This document shows positions 1,439 through 55,104 of a stretch of 64,000 nt of DNA, piece by piece. The stretch lies in the NCBI RefSeq assembly GCF_015732285.1, contig NZ_WIQU01000022.1:191119-255118 (forward strand). Reading direction: 5' to 3'. The stretch comes from Pectinatus frisingensis. Lineage in GTDB: Bacteria; Bacillota; Negativicutes; Selenomonadales; Selenomonadaceae. The notes beneath the pieces are model-generated. The model did not search any database. It was not told the DNA's origin and saw nothing but the letters and a program-made list of their open reading frames with translations. Numbering within the stretch: the first letter of the stretch is position 1; the number at the start of each line of letters is the position of its first letter. The position numbers and the translations under genes were made by a program.

Positions 1439-2713
1439 ATGGATAATTTACTGGAATTAAAAGGAATAAATAAAACGTTTAAAATAAAAGGCAGCGATGA
1501 TTCTGTTGTTTTGGAAGATATAAATCTCCAAGTGAAAGAGGGAGAATTTTTAGCAGTGCTTGGTCCGTCAGGATCAGGCAAATCAACATTGCTGCGTATA
1601 ATTGCAGGACTTATTCCCAGTACGAGCGGTACAGTGTCGTATCTTGGCAGGCAGATTCATGGGGTTAATCCCGGTGTGGCAATGGTTTTTCAGTCTTTTG
1701 CATTATTCCCCTGGCTTACTGTCGTAGAAAATGTAATGCTTGGCTTGGAACGAAAAAAAATGAGTACGGAAATGAAAAAGGAAAAGTCAATGCAGGTGCT
1801 TGACATAGTTGGGTTGGATGGTTTTGAAAATGCCTATCCTAAAGAACTTTCCGGCGGTATGCGGCAGCGTGTAGGTATTGGCCGGGCATTGGTCAGTGAA
1901 CCGGATATATTGTTGATGGATGAAGCTTTTTCAGCACTTGATGTACTTACGGCAGAAAATCTGCGTCGTGATTTATTGGAATTGTGGCTGGAAAAAAAGA
2001 TACCTACAAAATCTATTGTATTAATTACGCATGGAATTGAGGAAGCCGTGTATATGGCAGATAGAGCGGTAATTTTATCATCAGGACCGGCGACGATAAT
2101 TAAAAATATAAATATTGATTTACCGCGTTGGCGGGATAGAAAGTCAGCAGAATTTCTTGCTTATGTGGATGAAATATATTCAATAATGACAAAAAAGAAG
2201 GATAGAACTACACCGCTTCAGGTATTGTCAAAAAAAGATATAATTCCTGCCGTTTCGGCTGGTGCTTTAACCGGTTTCCTGGAGTTGCTGGAAGATTTGA
2301 ATGAAAAAACGGATCTGTATAAATTGGCAGATCGATTTGTAATGGATATGGAAGATTTTCTGCCTTTGATAGAAGCGTCAACCTTATTGCATTTTACTAA
2401 GGTTACGGAAGGTGATATTGAGCTGACTGATTATGGAACGGAATTTGCCCGAGCCAGTGTACTGGACAGAAAAAAACTTTTCCGCCGGCAGCTTTTGAAA
2501 CATGTACCATTTGTAAAAAAAATGTTGACTATTTTGCAGTCTAAATCAAATAAGCAGATGAATATAGAGTTTTTTGAAGAGTTATTAACGCGTACATTTG
2601 GTGAAACCGTAGCCCATCAACAATTAGAATGGCTGATTGGTTGGGAACGATATGCTGAACTCATTGAATATGATGATAATCGAGAAATAATTTATTTGGA
2701 AGAAAATGTATAA
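1439..2713 (+). CDS. ABC transporter ATP-binding protein with C-terminal AAA-associated domain
   Basis: Cytoplasmic ATPase that powers the permease encoded just upstream. The first ~250 residues are a standard ABC domain: Walker A GPSGSGKST (~43-51), Q-loop FQSFALFPW, signature LSGGMRQRVGIGRAL (~139-153), Walker B ILLMDEAFSALD and switch His in LITHGIEEA. The last ~170 residues are an extra helical region of the kind called AAA-associated C-terminal domain in nitrate/sulfonate-type ATPases. This makes the protein 424 residues instead of the usual ~250. The start ATG follows GGAGAAG. The extension is probably regulatory, but its role is inference. The operon appears to end here. Confidence 0.88.
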   Translation: MDNLLELKGINKTFKIKGSDDSVVLEDINLQVKEGEFLAVLGPSGSGKSTLLRIIAGLIPSTSGTVSYLGRQIHGVNPGVAMVFQSFALFPWLTVVENVMLGLERKKMSTEMKKEKSMQVLDIVGLDGFENAYPKELSGGMRQRVGIGRALVSEPDILLMDEAFSALDVLTAENLRRDLLELWLEKKIPTKSIVLITHGIEEAVYMADRAVILSSGPATIIKNINIDLPRWRDRKSAEFLAYVDEIYSIMTKKKDRTTPLQVLSKKDIIPAVSAGALTGFLELLEDLNEKTDLYKLADRFVMDMEDFLPLIEASTLLHFTKVTEGDIELTDYGTEFARASVLDRKKLFRRQLLKHVPFVKKMLTILQSKSNKQMNIEFFEELLTRTFGETVAHQQLEWLIGWERYAELIEYDDNREIIYLEENV

Positions 2714-2800
2714 TATTATGAAATAAAATCTTGCCGGAAAAAATCATTCGGAACGGGCCCATGTTACAGCAATAGAAAATATTCAAACAAGAAGGTAATT

Positions 2801-3781
2801 ATGGTGAAAAAAGTTATAGCTATTACGACGGGTGGTACCATTGCAATGAAATATGATAAAGCAGCCGGTGGATTAATTCCGGCGGTGAGCGGGGAAGATC
2901 TTTTGGAAGCAGTGCCGCCGCTTAAAGATATGGTACAAATTGAGGTGGTGGAATATTCAAATGTGCCTAGTGGACATATTACACCAAGGATGATGCTTGA
3001 GCTGGCAAAATTAATAGATATAAAAGCCAGTGACAGGGATGTTGCGGGAATTATTGTTACACATGGTACTGATACTATAGAAGAAACGGCTTATATGCTG
3101 GATTTGTCTGCACATACAAAAAAACCGATTTGTCTGACGGGAGCAATGAGGGGAGCATCGGATATGAGCTGGGATGGTCCGGGGAATATTTTGGCGGCAG
3201 TTAGGACGGTAATCAGCCCGGCTATGATTGGACAAGGGGTAACAGTGGTATTAAATAATCAAATACACGCGGCAAGTGAAGTTACAAAAACTCACTCAGT
3301 TAATACCGATACTTTTGCTTCACCATGGTGGGGACCGCTTGGTTACGTTTATGATGATTGTGTTGTAGTGAAACGACATCGGGCAAAACAGCAGAAAATT
3401 TATACGGATTCTCTGGAAGAAGATGTATATTTATTGAAGGTAACTGCCGGTATGGATGGTTTTTTGTTTGATTGCCTGGTCAAAAAAGGTGTAAAAGGAA
3501 TAGTGGTAGAGGGGTTTGGCTGTGGTAATGTACCACCGGCAGTGAAAAGAGGAATTGAATTGGCACGTCGACATGATATTCCGGTGGTCATGGCAACCCG
3601 TGTAACTGCAGGACGAGTTGCACCGGTATACAGCTATGAGGGCAGTGCGGGGTCACTGATTCCTGCCGGTGTTATTCTGGCTGGTGAAAGCAGTGGGCAA
3701 AAAGCGCGCCTTAAATTAATGCTGGCTTTGAAAGCGGCTGAAAATGATACTGAACTGCGGGCTTATTTTGAAGAAAGATAA
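2801..3781 (+). CDS. Asparaginase family protein (L-asparaginase)
   Basis: Hydrolyses L-asparagine to aspartate and ammonia. Both catalytic threonine motifs of the family are present: TTGGTIAMKYD near the N-terminus (~residues 9-19) and THGTDTIEETAY (~88-99), followed by TGAMR. The length of 326 residues is normal. There is no signal peptide, so it is probably cytoplasmic. The ATG is preceded by AGAAGG. It sits alone between the ABC genes and a GNAT gene with 87- and ~80-nt gaps. Whether it is type I or type II, and how much glutaminase activity it has, cannot be settled by eye. Confidence 0.9.
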   Translation: MVKKVIAITTGGTIAMKYDKAAGGLIPAVSGEDLLEAVPPLKDMVQIEVVEYSNVPSGHITPRMMLELAKLIDIKASDRDVAGIIVTHGTDTIEETAYMLDLSAHTKKPICLTGAMRGASDMSWDGPGNILAAVRTVISPAMIGQGVTVVLNNQIHAASEVTKTHSVNTDTFASPWWGPLGYVYDDCVVVKRHRAKQQKIYTDSLEEDVYLLKVTAGMDGFLFDCLVKKGVKGIVVEGFGCGNVPPAVKRGIELARRHDIPVVMATRVTAGRVAPVYSYEGSAGSLIPAGVILAGESSGQKARLKLMLALKAAENDTELRAYFEER

Positions 3782-7163: not shown

Positions 7164-7394
7164 AATAAAAAAATCCCTGGCAAAAGCCAAGGACGACAAT
7201 GTCGCGGTACCACCCTGATTGACAGTAAACTGTCCACTTTGTATATTAACGCTATCAACGCCGGTTTTCCGGAAGCCTCAGCAGTGAGTTCAAACTGGAT
7301 AAATGCCGGTTTGCAGCGTCCAACGGCTCTCTGAAAGATATCGCAGCTTTACTATTCTGTGTCATAAGCAGATTTGTTTGTTAAGTTATAAACT
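7164..7394 (-). promoter_or_regulatory. T-box leader of leuS (tRNA-Leu responsive)
   Basis: The minus strand holds the invariant T-box sequence GGGTGGTACCGCG (plus 7203-7215) and then a terminator stem CCTTGGC/GCCAGGG (plus 7174-7193) ending in a T run, just before the leuS ribosome binding site. Upstream is a long structured Stem I region. A CTC leucine codon at plus 7286-7288, in GAACTCACTG context, is the likely specifier. Uncharged tRNA-Leu would pair with the specifier and the T-box bulge and allow read-through. The specifier assignment is inferred; the T-box itself is unmistakable. Confidence 0.93.
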
Positions 7395-50647: not shown

Positions 50648-50657
50648 GTTTAAAGCG

Positions 50658-50691
50658 ATGCCCGCCTTTGTAAATGAAGGCGGGCATTTTT
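50658..50691 (+). terminator. Terminator after sdhCAB
   Basis: ATGCCCGCCTT and AAGGCGGGCAT (50658-50668, 50677-50687) form an 11-bp stem followed by TTTTTG, 10 nt after the sdhB stop. Confidence 0.93.
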
Positions 50692-50728
50692 GCGGTTAAG
50701 TTTCTTTGTTTTATCATAATATAAGTTC

Positions 50729-50757
50729 TTGCTTTTACTGATAAATTCTTTTATAAT
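50729..50757 (+). promoter_or_regulatory. Promoter of the spermidine operon leader
   Basis: TTGCTT (50729-50734) and TATAAT (50752-50757) are separated by 17 bp. The start point is near 50764, 355 nt before the speD ATG. Confidence 0.6.
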
Positions 50758-50763
50758 AGAGCT

Positions 50764-51118
50764 TACAGTAATAATTAGTATAAAGTCCAGTGTGAGCAGA
50801 AATTGTTGACTGCTTTATAAATAAGGCAACACAACGGACAGGGCAACTGCCCTTTTTATTGATTCTGCTATTGCATCATTATAGCAGATAAAACTAGGAT
50901 TTCAATATCACAGTTTGAAATCGGGGTTCATTTTATAAGAATATTTTGCGTATTGGCGCGTTGCTTGTGAAATGGTCAATAAGAGTATTAAAAGTAATTT
51001 TCTGCTATATAGACTCTGGCTCATATAAAGGTATCAGCGACGATATCTTCATAACTCAGGTAAACGGCAGTATGTGCAGTTTTATCTGAGTTTTATTTTG
51101 CGGAAAAGAGGTCATTGT
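50764..51118 (+). promoter_or_regulatory. Long structured leader of speDAEB with two terminator-like hairpins
   Basis: This gene-free stretch is rich in hairpins. A nested set (GTCC/GGAC, GTGT/ACAC, AGCAG/CTGCT) spans about 50787-50838 and leads into AGGGC AACT GCCCT plus TTTTTATT (to ~50860). Further hairpins are CTGCTA/TAGCAG (~50863-50885) and GATTTCAA/TTTGAAATC. A 12-bp stem (51053-51064 with 51081-51092) ends in TTTTATTTTG directly before the speD ribosome binding site. This looks like transcription attenuation. It matched no riboswitch class I know. Confidence 0.5.
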
Positions 51119-51910
51119 ATGAATGAAAAATTGAAATTATATGGCTTTAATAATCTTACTAAGGCATTGAGTTTTAATATCTATGATGTTTGTTATGCCA
51201 AGACACCGAGGGAACAAAAAGATTATATAAAATATATTGGCGAGGAATATAATTCAGAACGATTGACCAAAATACTAACACATGTGACGGAGATGATCGG
51301 AGCAAAAGTGCTGCACATCGCTAAACAGGATTATGATCCGCAGGGAGCCAGCGTAGCGATGCTGATAGGCAATAAAAATATGTCCAGGTCGGCTTATGCT
51401 GATGTGGAAGATGAAACTGTGTCGGGCAATACAATTCTTGCCCATTTGGATAAAAGCCATGTAACTGTGCATACTTATCCCGAATATCATCCTGATAATT
51501 GTATAGCTACTTTTCGTGTTGATATTGATGTATCAACTTGCGGAGAGATAACGCCGCTGAATACGCTTAATTATTTGATAGGCAATTTTGATTCCGACAT
51601 AATAACCATGGACTATCGTGTGCGTGGTTTCACAAGAGATGTCAGCGGCAAAAAGTTATTTATGGATCATCGCATAGCTTCAATTCAGGATTTTATTGAT
51701 CCTAAAACTTTAGAAGAATATGATGCTATTGATATAAATATGTATCAGGCTAATCTTTTTCATACGAAAATGCTGATAAAGGAATGTGATCTGAGCAATT
51801 ACCTGTTTAAAACTGATATTTATGAAATACCACCCAAAACACGTTTATCAATAATGAATGGTCTGCGTCGGGAAATGATCGAAATTTTTAGTGGTACAAA
51901 TATCTTTTAA
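51119..51910 (+). CDS. speD: S-adenosylmethionine decarboxylase proenzyme (long, E. coli type)
   Basis: Makes decarboxylated SAM, the aminopropyl donor for spermidine. The self-cleavage site is in LDKSHVTVHTYPE, with the Ser that becomes the pyruvoyl group at about residue 113; CGEITPLNTLNYLI and TMDYRVRGFTRD follow. At 263 residues it is the long enterobacterial form rather than the ~125-residue Bacillus form. ATG 51119 is chosen (AAAGAGGTC upstream); the longer frame from 51074 runs through the leader hairpin. It is first in speD-speA-speE-speB. Confidence 0.95.
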   Translation: MNEKLKLYGFNNLTKALSFNIYDVCYAKTPREQKDYIKYIGEEYNSERLTKILTHVTEMIGAKVLHIAKQDYDPQGASVAMLIGNKNMSRSAYADVEDETVSGNTILAHLDKSHVTVHTYPEYHPDNCIATFRVDIDVSTCGEITPLNTLNYLIGNFDSDIITMDYRVRGFTRDVSGKKLFMDHRIASIQDFIDPKTLEEYDAIDINMYQANLFHTKMLIKECDLSNYLFKTDIYEIPPKTRLSIMNGLRREMIEIFSGTNIF

Positions 51911-51932
51911 AAAAGGGGAATTGAGTTTAAAG

Positions 51933-53384
51933 GTGAAAAAACTTACACAGGAAAATGCACCGATATTGGAAGCTTTGGAAAAAATGAAACAAAGACGTAT
52001 TGTACCATTTGATGTACCGGGACATAAACGGGGCCGCGGTAATAAAGTCCTGACTGATTTTTTAGGGGAAAAATGTATGGCAGTCGATGTGAATTCAATG
52101 AAACCTCTGGATAATTTGTGTCATCCTGTTTCCGTTATAAAAGATGCCGAACATTTGGCGGCCGCGGCTTTTGGTGCGGCTCATGCTTTTTTCATGGTGG
52201 GAGGAACTACTTCGTCAGTACAGGCTATGATACTCACTGTGTGTAAGCGGGGAGATAAGATAATTTTACCGCGCAACGTACACAGAAGTGTCATTAATGC
52301 GATGATTTTATGTGGGGCAGTACCAATATACATAAATCCGCAAATGGATAAAACACTAGGGATTTCTCTTGGAATGAGCATTGCTGATGTTACCGCCGCA
52401 ATTGAAAATAACCCTGATGCCAAAGCGGTGCTGGTCAATAATCCTACGTATTATGGTATTTGTTCTGATATAAAAACGATAGTTCGGACAGCTCATGCCA
52501 ATAATATGTTTGTTCTGGCTGATGAAGCACATGGTACCCATTTCTATTTTAGTGACCGGCTGCCGCTTGCTGCAATGCATGCAGGTGCCGATATGGCAGC
52601 GGTGAGTCTTCATAAATCAGGAGGCTCTTTGACCCAAAGCTCGATGCTGTTTATAAACGATAAAATTTCCGAGGGTTATGTTCGGCAGATAATCAATCTT
52701 ACACAAACGACCAGTGGCTCTTATCTTTTAATGTCAAGCCTTGATATTTCCCGGCGGAATTTGGCTCTCTGTGGAAAACAAATTATTGATTCGGTGATAG
52801 ACTTAGTAGAGTATGCCCGTAGTGAAATAAATAATATTGGCGATTATTATGCTTATTCCCAGGAAAAAATAGACGGTGATGCAATTTATGATTTTGACAT
52901 AACGAAACTGTCTATATATACGAGGTCTATTGGATTAGCCGGCATTGAAGTGTATGACATACTGCGTGATGAATATGATATTCAAACGGAGTTTGGTGAT
53001 TTGGCAAATTTATTGGCTTACGTATCCATTGGTGATCGTCCGCGCGACATGGAGCGGCTGGTAAGTGCACTATCAGAAATACGACGCATTTATAAAAAAG
53101 ATTCTACAGGAATGCTGGAAGCGGAGTATATAAATCCGCAGGTGATTTTACCACCCCAGGATGCTTTTTACACTGATAATGAAAAATCATTGCCTTTGGA
53201 TGAAGCAGTGGGAAAAGTTTGTACGGAATTTGTTATGTGTTATCCGCCAGGAATACCAATATTGGCGCCGGGGGAATTGGTCACCGGACAGGTATTGGAA
53301 TACATTCATTATGCTAAAGAAAAAGGCTGTCAGATGACTGGCCCTGAAGATATGGAATTAAAACATTTAAATGTAATGGGGTGA
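51933..53384 (+). CDS. speA: Arginine decarboxylase, fold-type I PLP enzyme (Orn/Lys/Arg family)
   Basis: Converts arginine to agmatine. It has VPFDVPGHKRGRGN near residue 24, HPVSVIKDAEHLAAAAFGA, MVGGTTSSVQAMI, ADEAHGTHF and the PLP-binding Lys in VSLHKSGGSLTQSS (~residue 230). The C-terminal YPPGIPILAPGE is typical. This is the B. subtilis SpeA type, not the E. coli type. Arginine rather than lysine or ornithine is inferred from speB in the same operon. GTG 51933 (AGGGGAA upstream) gives 483 residues; TTG 51921 in the same frame lacks spacing. Confidence 0.9.
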   Translation: MKKLTQENAPILEALEKMKQRRIVPFDVPGHKRGRGNKVLTDFLGEKCMAVDVNSMKPLDNLCHPVSVIKDAEHLAAAAFGAAHAFFMVGGTTSSVQAMILTVCKRGDKIILPRNVHRSVINAMILCGAVPIYINPQMDKTLGISLGMSIADVTAAIENNPDAKAVLVNNPTYYGICSDIKTIVRTAHANNMFVLADEAHGTHFYFSDRLPLAAMHAGADMAAVSLHKSGGSLTQSSMLFINDKISEGYVRQIINLTQTTSGSYLLMSSLDISRRNLALCGKQIIDSVIDLVEYARSEINNIGDYYAYSQEKIDGDAIYDFDITKLSIYTRSIGLAGIEVYDILRDEYDIQTEFGDLANLLAYVSIGDRPRDMERLVSALSEIRRIYKKDSTGMLEAEYINPQVILPPQDAFYTDNEKSLPLDEAVGKVCTEFVMCYPPGIPILAPGELVTGQVLEYIHYAKEKGCQMTGPEDMELKHLNVMG

Positions 53385-53390
53385 TGTATT

Positions 53391-54242
53391 ATGGAATTAT
53401 GGTTCACTGAAAAACATACACCATATGTACGGTTTTCTATAAAAGTAGATAAACAGCTTTATTCGGGGAAAAGTGAATTTCAGCGTATTGATGTTTTTGA
53501 ATCAAAAGAATTCGGCCGCATTTTAACATTAGATGGTTATTTGATGTTGACAGAAAAAGATGAATTTATTTACCATGAAATGATTACGCACGTACCGATG
53601 TCAGTCATGCCGCAGGCACAGAAAATTCTTATCATCGGCGGTGGTGACGGAGGAACTGCCAGGGAAATACTGCGTTATAAAACAGTTAAAAGAATTGACC
53701 TCGTCGATATTGATGCAACCGTGGCTGATGTTTGCCGAAAATATATACCTCAGACGGGTGCCAGTCTTGATGATCCGCGTGTACATTGCCACTTTGAAGA
53801 CGGATTGAAATATATTCGTCATTATGAGAACGATTATGATATTATTATAGTTGATTCCACCGATCCGTTTGGTCCGGGAGAAGGGCTGTTTACAAAAGAA
53901 TTTTATGGAAATTGCTATAAAGCATTGAAAGACGATGGAATAATGGTTAATCAGCATGAAAGCCCGTTTTATACTGAGGATGCCTATGCTATGCAACGAG
54001 CCCATAAAAGGATTTTTGCGTCTTTTCCTATCAGCCGGATATACCAGGCACATATTCCAACATATCCTTCAGGTCATTGGTTGTTTGGTTTTGCCTCTAA
54101 AAAATATCATCCTATTGAAGATGCTGATTGGGACAAATGGGAGAAGTTGGGAATAAAGACACGGTATTATAATCCTAAATTACACGCAGGTGCATTTGCC
54201 CTGCCCAATTATGTGGAGGAAATAGTTCGTGAGGTTGAATAA
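53391..54242 (+). CDS. speE: Spermidine synthase
   Basis: Transfers an aminopropyl group from decarboxylated SAM to putrescine. Typical motifs are LMLTEKDEFIYHEMITHVPM, ILIIGGGDGGTAREIL (~residues 81-96, cofactor loop), DLVDID, DDPRVHCHFEDGLKYI and the catalytic Asp in IIVDSTDPFGPGEGLF. It has 283 residues. The start ATG is 6 nt after the speA stop. It overlaps speB by 14 nt. Confidence 0.96.
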   Translation: MELWFTEKHTPYVRFSIKVDKQLYSGKSEFQRIDVFESKEFGRILTLDGYLMLTEKDEFIYHEMITHVPMSVMPQAQKILIIGGGDGGTAREILRYKTVKRIDLVDIDATVADVCRKYIPQTGASLDDPRVHCHFEDGLKYIRHYENDYDIIIVDSTDPFGPGEGLFTKEFYGNCYKALKDDGIMVNQHESPFYTEDAYAMQRAHKRIFASFPISRIYQAHIPTYPSGHWLFGFASKKYHPIEDADWDKWEKLGIKTRYYNPKLHAGAFALPNYVEEIVREVE

Positions 54243-55104
54243 AAATATTGAAACAATTATTGGTTGCGAAAAGGAATATGATGCAGCCAATGTAGTTATA
54301 TTCGGGGCCCCGTTTGATTCGACTGCTTCTTATCGTCCCGGAGCCCGTTTTGCGTCAAAAACGATGCGAACAGAATCATATAATATGGAAACATACAGCC
54401 CGTATCTTGACCTTGATTTGGAAAGTGACACCAAGATATTTGATGGAGGAGAACTGTCGGTCTCACTCGGAGATACACAAAAGACACTTGACATCATTTA
54501 TGAATTCAGTAAGAACTTATTGATGGACCATAAATTACCATTTATGATCGGTGGAGAGCATTTGGTAACTTTAGGCGCATTCAGGGCTGTCGCTGAAAAA
54601 TATCCTGACGTTCATATTATTCATTTTGATGCTCATGCTGATTTGCGTGATGAATTTCTGGAAACGCCATTTTCTCATGCCACTGTCTTACGGCGCTGTT
54701 ATGATAAAATCGGTGATGGCCGTATCTTTCAGTTTGGAATCAGAAGTGGAGAAAAAACAGAAATGCTCTGGGGCAAAAAACATGTTCAGATGCATTTATT
54801 TGACTTTGCAGGATTAGACAAAGTTCTTGATAAATTACATGACAAACCAATTTATTTTACTGTTGATCTTGACGTACTGGATCCGGCTGTTTTTCCAGGG
54901 ACAGGGACGCCTGAAGCCGGTGGTGTCACTTTTGATGAATTACGCCTCGCCATGCAGGCAGTTGCGAAACTGAATATTGTTGGTACTGATATGGTGGAAC
55001 TGAGTCCGCCATGCGACTTAAGCGGAGTATCAACTACCGTGGCATTAAAATTATTAAGGGAGTTTTTGCTGGCTTTAGTGGGCAATGATCATTTAAATAA
55101 ATAA
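54229..55104 (+). CDS. speB: Agmatinase
   Basis: Hydrolyses agmatine to putrescine and urea, giving the substrate for SpeE. Mn-binding motifs of the ureohydrolase family are complete: GGEHLVTLG, IIHFDAHADLRDEF (~residues 125-138) and FTVDLDVLDPAVFPGTGTPE (~208-227). It has 291 residues. GTG 54229 follows GGAGGAAATA, which lies in the end of speE. Last gene of the operon; a palindromic element follows 29 nt after its stop. Confidence 0.95.
   Translation: MRLNKNIETIIGCEKEYDAANVVIFGAPFDSTASYRPGARFASKTMRTESYNMETYSPYLDLDLESDTKIFDGGELSVSLGDTQKTLDIIYEFSKNLLMDHKLPFMIGGEHLVTLGAFRAVAEKYPDVHIIHFDAHADLRDEFLETPFSHATVLRRCYDKIGDGRIFQFGIRSGEKTEMLWGKKHVQMHLFDFAGLDKVLDKLHDKPIYFTVDLDVLDPAVFPGTGTPEAGGVTFDELRLAMQAVAKLNIVGTDMVELSPPCDLSGVSTTVALKLLREFLLALVGNDHLNK

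Follow-up and report, generated by a model that had tools for sequence, protein, structure and literature searches.

A divergent ldcC-type RNA in the leader of the Pectinatus speD operon, with probable control of transcription by attenuation

Introduction

The closest described relative of the leader considered here is ldcC RNA, held in Rfam as RF02440 (SpF59_sRNA), a 54-nt model that is filed as an sRNA. The ldcC motif reportedly figured among the candidate structured RNAs of a 2017 survey, which may also contain part of its full-length structure and gene list. In the literature that we searched, which did not cover the ldcC motif itself, we found no published ligand for ldcC RNA. Two other systems invite comparison. 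The first is a SAM-I-derived riboswitch for spermidine (Salvail et al. 2023, PMC10853860). It resembles the Pectinatus leader in its downstream polyamine genes, in its probable ligand, and in working as a terminator/antiterminator OFF switch, as we propose for Pectinatus; however, it is a close variant of SAM-I, whereas the Pectinatus leader has no match to RF00162. The second is the T-box leader (RF00230), which is likewise long and ends in a terminator/antiterminator, but whose model has no match in the Pectinatus leader. Control of polyamine synthesis is physiologically relevant in Negativicutes, because polyamines contribute to anchoring the outer membrane on the cell wall in these bacteria, which put cadaverine and putrescine into their peptidoglycan (PMC10628300).

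Here, we describe the ~355-nt leader that lies between a promoter and the speD operon of Pectinatus frisingensis, as found in a 64,000-nt stretch of contig NZ_WIQU01000022.1 (“the window”). We consider it probable that this leader is a divergent cis-regulatory RNA of the ldcC type that controls the operon speD–decarboxylase–speE–speB by transcription attenuation. The analysis adds a full-length model of ldcC-type RNAs, members of the class that RF02440 misses, and an antiterminator signature that runs through the class. The gene set of these RNAs favors polyamine end products over S-adenosylmethionine (SAM) or decarboxylated SAM (dcSAM), and raises a testable question: does an ldcC-type RNA sense spermidine?

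The leader, its promoter and its operon

The features of the locus are collected in Table 1. About 240 nt of the leader form an unusually stable, conserved RNA. The whole leader is more stable than shuffled versions of itself (z −4.6, with 0 of 100 shuffles as good), and the aptamer part alone has z-scores of −3.1 to −5.9 against shuffles in the four Pectinatus species with a long leader. Downstream, the genes run in the order speD, Orn/Lys/Arg decarboxylase, speE and speB (agmatinase).

Table 1. Predicted and annotated features of the speD locus (window coordinates)
Feature	Positions	Strand	Remarks
Intrinsic terminator of upstream sdh genes	50656..50692	+	GCCCGCC...GGCGGGC then TTTTT, read in sequence
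Promoter: TTGCTT (50729-50734), 17 nt, TATAAT (50752-50757)	50729..50757	+	conserved boxes and spacing
P1 closing helix, 5′ strand: AGUC (50784-50787) and AGCAGAAA (50795-50802)	50784..50802	+	pairs with 51012-51015 and 50999-51006
P2 hairpin (UUGU/ACAA around UGCUUUA/UAAGGCA), then CGGACAG (50835-50841)	50803..50841	+	
R3 match	50824..51018	+	56.7 bits, E 6.5e-14; sole R3 match in window
P3 hairpin AGGGC/GCCCU	50840..50853	+	stem kept in relatives with other bases, without U tract
P4 long-range helix UUUAUUGAU (50855-50863) / GUCAAUAAG (50975-50983)	50855..50983	+	encloses variable hairpins
P6 hairpin CAUUUUAUAAG / CUUGUGAAAUG	50929..50974	+	
Candidate antiterminator strand UUGCUUG	50961..50967	+	overlaps P6 3′ strand; complementary to 51057-51063
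Conserved joining region AGUAUUAAAAGUA, P1 3′ strand, GACUCUGGCU	50984..51021	+	
Intrinsic terminator ACUCAGGUAA...UUAUCUGAGU and UUUUAUUUU	51054..51099	+	stem 51054-51091, U tract to 51099
speD ribosome-binding site AAGAGG (likely)	51106..51111	+	sequence; 7 nt 5′ of ATG at 51119
speD, adenosylmethionine decarboxylase	51119..51910	+	TIGR03331, E 3e-122
Orn/Lys/Arg decarboxylase	51891..53384	+	PF01276
speE, spermidine synthase	53391..54242	+	TIGR00417
speB, agmatinase	54229..55104	+	TIGR01230

An earlier note on this DNA had placed a promoter with 17-nt spacing far upstream of speD, and comparison bears this out: four of the five Pectinatus species have this spacing, and boxes and spacing alike recur in P. 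haikarae, P. cerevisiiphilus and P. brassicae. Transcription is predicted to start near position 50764, and the terminator of the sdh genes is read as insulating the leader from the genes upstream. The −35 box has only three of the six consensus bases, so a simple promoter scan missed it. A strong-looking promoter on the minus strand (50905-50878) falls within the variable hairpin region and was judged to be a chance occurrence.

No promoter was found immediately before speD. This matters for the reading that the RNA is a free-standing small RNA gene ending at the terminator rather than a cis leader, which would suit the possession of its own promoter and terminator and the filing of RF02440 as an sRNA. 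We regard that reading as improbable, since only 21 nt follow the terminator, leaving no room for a speD promoter, and polyamine genes follow ldcC-type RNAs throughout.

As a cis leader, the RNA is tied to a single operon. It stands before speD, and nowhere else, in all five Pectinatus genomes, with only its two ends present in P. haikarae; a search of the window’s own genome found no further copies. The named relatives that carry it are P. brassicae, P. cerevisiiphilus and P. haikarae. In the last of these (one assembly; L002 / L049), a natural deletion of ~210 nt removes almost the whole aptamer-like domain while sparing the promoter, AGUCCAG, GACUCUGGCU and the terminator, and the speD operon is still present despite the loss of most of the RNA. 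At another Pectinatus locus (L032, on G004:C1), speD itself is split by a ~1.2-kb insertion (~2012-3240) with a transposase-like ORF of 367 aa, and the leader is still conserved 5′ of the interrupted gene.

Kinship with ldcC RNA

An Rfam scan of the leader, which the earlier note had suggested, gave no match at gathering score and only chance matches at E up to 5. As that note had stated, the known SAM classes and the T-box are absent: neither RF00162 nor RF00230 matches the leader at either threshold, although the scan does find SAM-I RNAs (RF00162) in two of the other loci compared. The sole Rfam match in the window lies on the minus strand at 7186-7375, a T-box leader that scores 104.6 bits with RF00230. 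RF02440, too, stays below its gathering score throughout the window and all five Pectinatus genomes, whereas it detects 22 of the 380 Negativicutes genomes and, from the control set, Lactococcus lactis.

The note had also suggested a covariation search in other Negativicutes. In a second Negativicutes family, a covariance model of the aptamer built from the four long Pectinatus leaders (R2) matched nine genomes, with E-values of 0.01–0.08, which are borderline alone. However, at all five scanned loci of that family, an RF02440 match lies at the 5′ edge of the R2 match, and these loci have long sequence strings in common with the Pectinatus leaders. In the opposite direction, a full-length model (R3) was built from 12 ldcC-type RNAs, Pectinatus excluded, with nine pairs showing compensatory change. 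R3 matches exactly once per genome in four Pectinatus genomes (E 3e-12 to 5e-6, with 3e-12 in the genome-wide search of the window’s genome), and has no match in P. haikarae, where the deletion lies. We take these reciprocal matches to be the core of the identification. Across the phylum, R3 matches 25 of 398 sampled genomes, in 18 genera. When fifteen loci were rescanned with Rfam, six R3 loci (L128, L129, L133, L134, L135 and L136), all 5′ of a decarboxylase or of speD plus a decarboxylase, had no RF02440 match, indicating that the 54-nt model misses members of the class.

Judged by this comparison, the leader is a divergent, genus-specific relative of ldcC RNA. The earlier idea of a riboswitch-like leader with terminator control is thus supported, but the leader is not unrelated to everything known. 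It shares with ldcC RNA the CGGACAG of the 5′ domain, the UUAUUGAU/GGUCAAUA helix, the UUUUAUAAG/CUUGUGAAA hairpin, GAGUANUAAAAGUA, GCUAUAUAGACUCU, the terminator, and the position 5′ of polyamine genes; its matching 3′ region, its place in the operon and the complementarity of its terminator are those of a full-length ldcC-type RNA. It differs in having a longer variable insert inside P4, and in that the GGACC...GGUCC-closed 5′ domain of RF02440 cannot be recognized. Because it is this domain that defines the Rfam family, we term the leader a divergent variant rather than a member of RF02440.

Other searches added little. A model of the 3′ switch region (R1) matched only Pectinatus, apart from weak matches (E 0.001-0.01) that are presumably generic terminator hairpins. 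An exact pattern scan of genome contigs returned three Pectinatus records, together with Comamonas and Nostoc, both probably by chance, and phage records contained no match to the leader. Variation of another kind is seen in ldcC RNAs of one genus (L093 and L100-L103; genus g52, family f15), which either lack the 3′ part AGUAGUAAAAGUA...GCUAUAUAGACUC or have another sequence in its place, such as GAGUCGUUCGUAACGGGG; these RNAs still lie 5′ of a decarboxylase.

Helices of the leader

The helices recur in related genomes. A long-range helix, P1, closes the aptamer-like part of the leader; in its inner portion, the sequence differs yet the pairing is kept in other ldcC-type RNAs. GUGU/AUAU was rejected as part of P1, because the pairing is disrupted in P. 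cerevisiiphilus and other ldcC-type RNAs have an internal loop at this place. P2 carries a U-A to C-G change in P. cerevisiiphilus, and the CGGACAG that follows it is common to the Pectinatus leader and ldcC RNAs. The P4 pairing is present in all four long Pectinatus leaders, and its counterpart in RNAs from outside the genus is UAUUGAU/GGUCAAUA. Taken by themselves, the four Pectinatus leaders show no significant covariation.

An ORF at 50972, MVNKSIKSNFLLYRLWLI, offers a different reading of the conserved block, namely attenuation by ribosomes translating a leader peptide: it has an ATG and an open frame within the block and ends beside the switch region. We rejected this reading and consider it very improbable, since the ORF has no ribosome-binding site, the length of its frame varies among the four species, it is absent in P. 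haikarae, and its ATG is lacking in 12 of 12 RNAs of an alignment (A5) in which the block is nevertheless conserved.

One terminator

Two terminator-like hairpins had been described in the leader, and only the second appears to function as one. The hairpin immediately upstream of the speD ribosome-binding site, with its U tract, is conserved in all five Pectinatus species (z −3.6 to −6.3); its 5′ arm contains CAGGUAA (51057-51063), and mean column identity over the last 100 nt of the leader is 85% within Pectinatus. The first, at ~50840-50860, exists as the P3 hairpin, and in the window it is followed by five Us. As a terminator, it is not conserved: the stem of P. brassicae and the G004 species reads AGUGAU..AUCACU and is followed by only three Us, and the U-rich tail is the UUUAUUGAU strand of P4, which pairs with GUCAAUAAG.

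Switch logic

Although terminators of ldcC-type RNAs differ in sequence between genera (GCAAGU.., CAGGUGAUGU.., CACAAGUGAUGG.. and CAGGUAA..), complementarity of their 5′ arms to the ACUUGUG strand of P6 recurs from genus to genus. In Pectinatus, the pairing is UUGCUUG/CAGGUAA. The sequences compared are related rather than independent, so the following figures are guides and not exact probabilities: the mean helix score of the P6 strand is 15.5 with its own terminator 5′ arm and 10.3 with the 3′ arm; shuffled arms score 10.0 ± 0.4 (0 of 1000 reach 15.5), and arms swapped between species score 14.0 ± 0.4 (2 of 1000 do so). Restricted to the four Pectinatus leaders, and read with the same caution, the score is 14.5 versus 11.5 for shuffles, a value reached by 2% of them.

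Since the terminator 5′ arm is complementary to a strand of P6, this suggests that P6 and the antiterminator are mutually exclusive, and that the folded aptamer leaves the terminator on, i.e., an OFF switch. We infer that the leader would bind a ligand and that binding would lower expression. With little signal present, the terminator 5′ arm would be paired with the CUUG strand of P6, forming the antiterminator, and the operon would be transcribed. When the signal is abundant, the aptamer domain (P1, P4 and P6) would be stabilized and the terminator arm freed, and transcription would end near 51099. The signal would most likely be spermidine or a closely related polyamine, acting as end-product feedback. 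The energy balance is not obvious, because the 11-bp P6 of Pectinatus looks stronger than the 7-bp antiterminator, which includes two G-U pairs. Another antiterminator, CUGG/UCAG (51016-51019 with 51056-51059), could form; its bases are invariant, and it is hence unsupported.

The choice between terminator and antiterminator might instead be made by a protein, for which the conserved single-stranded segments could serve as binding sites. We know of no candidate protein, and we think this unlikely: with its complexity and its several conserved helices, the domain looks more like a ligand aptamer than like the short sites that proteins bind.

Genes controlled and candidate ligands

With a small molecule as the favored signal, the genes that follow ldcC-type RNAs become informative. 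Three arrangements are seen: an Orn/Lys/Arg decarboxylase alone, speD plus a decarboxylase, or carboxynorspermidine synthase. The most constant neighbor is the Orn/Lys/Arg decarboxylase. The Pectinatus decarboxylase has 63-80% identity to the decarboxylases that follow ldcC-type RNAs and, on this evidence, is a relative of the gene directly 3′ of most of them. In Paenibacillus cellulosilyticus, an RNA matched by both RF02440 and R3 (E 1.6e-36) lies 5′ of a relative of carboxynorspermidine synthase and a further, decarboxylase-like gene. A homologue of this synthase occurs in 38 of 40 carrier genomes tested. All of these homologues score below the family’s curated cut-off, and the exact product (carboxyspermidine or carboxynorspermidine) is therefore unsettled. 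By coordinate comparison, 36 of those 38 have the homologue within ~5 kb 3′ of the RNA and on its strand.

The ligands listed in the earlier note (SAM, dcSAM, a polyamine, arginine or agmatine) do not fit these genes equally well. SAM and dcSAM are poor candidates, because operons of the carboxyspermidine route, which needs neither, are headed by this RNA as well. The SpeD/SpeE and carboxyspermidine routes have polyamines in common, but not dcSAM, making spermidine the simplest shared end product. Spermidine or a related polyamine is thus probably the best fit to the genes common to the class.

The same RNA and the same attenuation could also serve a ligand of the first step: arginine, lysine, agmatine, putrescine or cadaverine. 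The constancy of the decarboxylase and the cadaverine and putrescine of Negativicutes peptidoglycan (PMC10628300) speak for this version, whereas three leaders of one Bacillota group and that of P. cellulosilyticus have carboxynorspermidine synthase directly 3′ without the Orn/Lys/Arg decarboxylase, and nearly all carriers have a triamine route. We view a first-step ligand as possible but somewhat doubtful. Returning to spermidine, we tentatively propose, as a serious possibility, that full-length ldcC-type RNAs constitute a second class of natural spermidine (or polyamine) riboswitches, one without kinship to SAM-I. Such a class would operate in the speD/speE route as well as in the carboxyspermidine route; its 5′ domain would have diverged in Pectinatus, and P. 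haikarae would provide a naturally occurring deletion mutant.

The genome of the window also encodes a carboxynorspermidine-synthase homologue (G000:C60:124836-125990), ~116 kb from the speD operon; it is unlinked to the RNA there, whereas in nearly all other carriers the homologue adjoins it.
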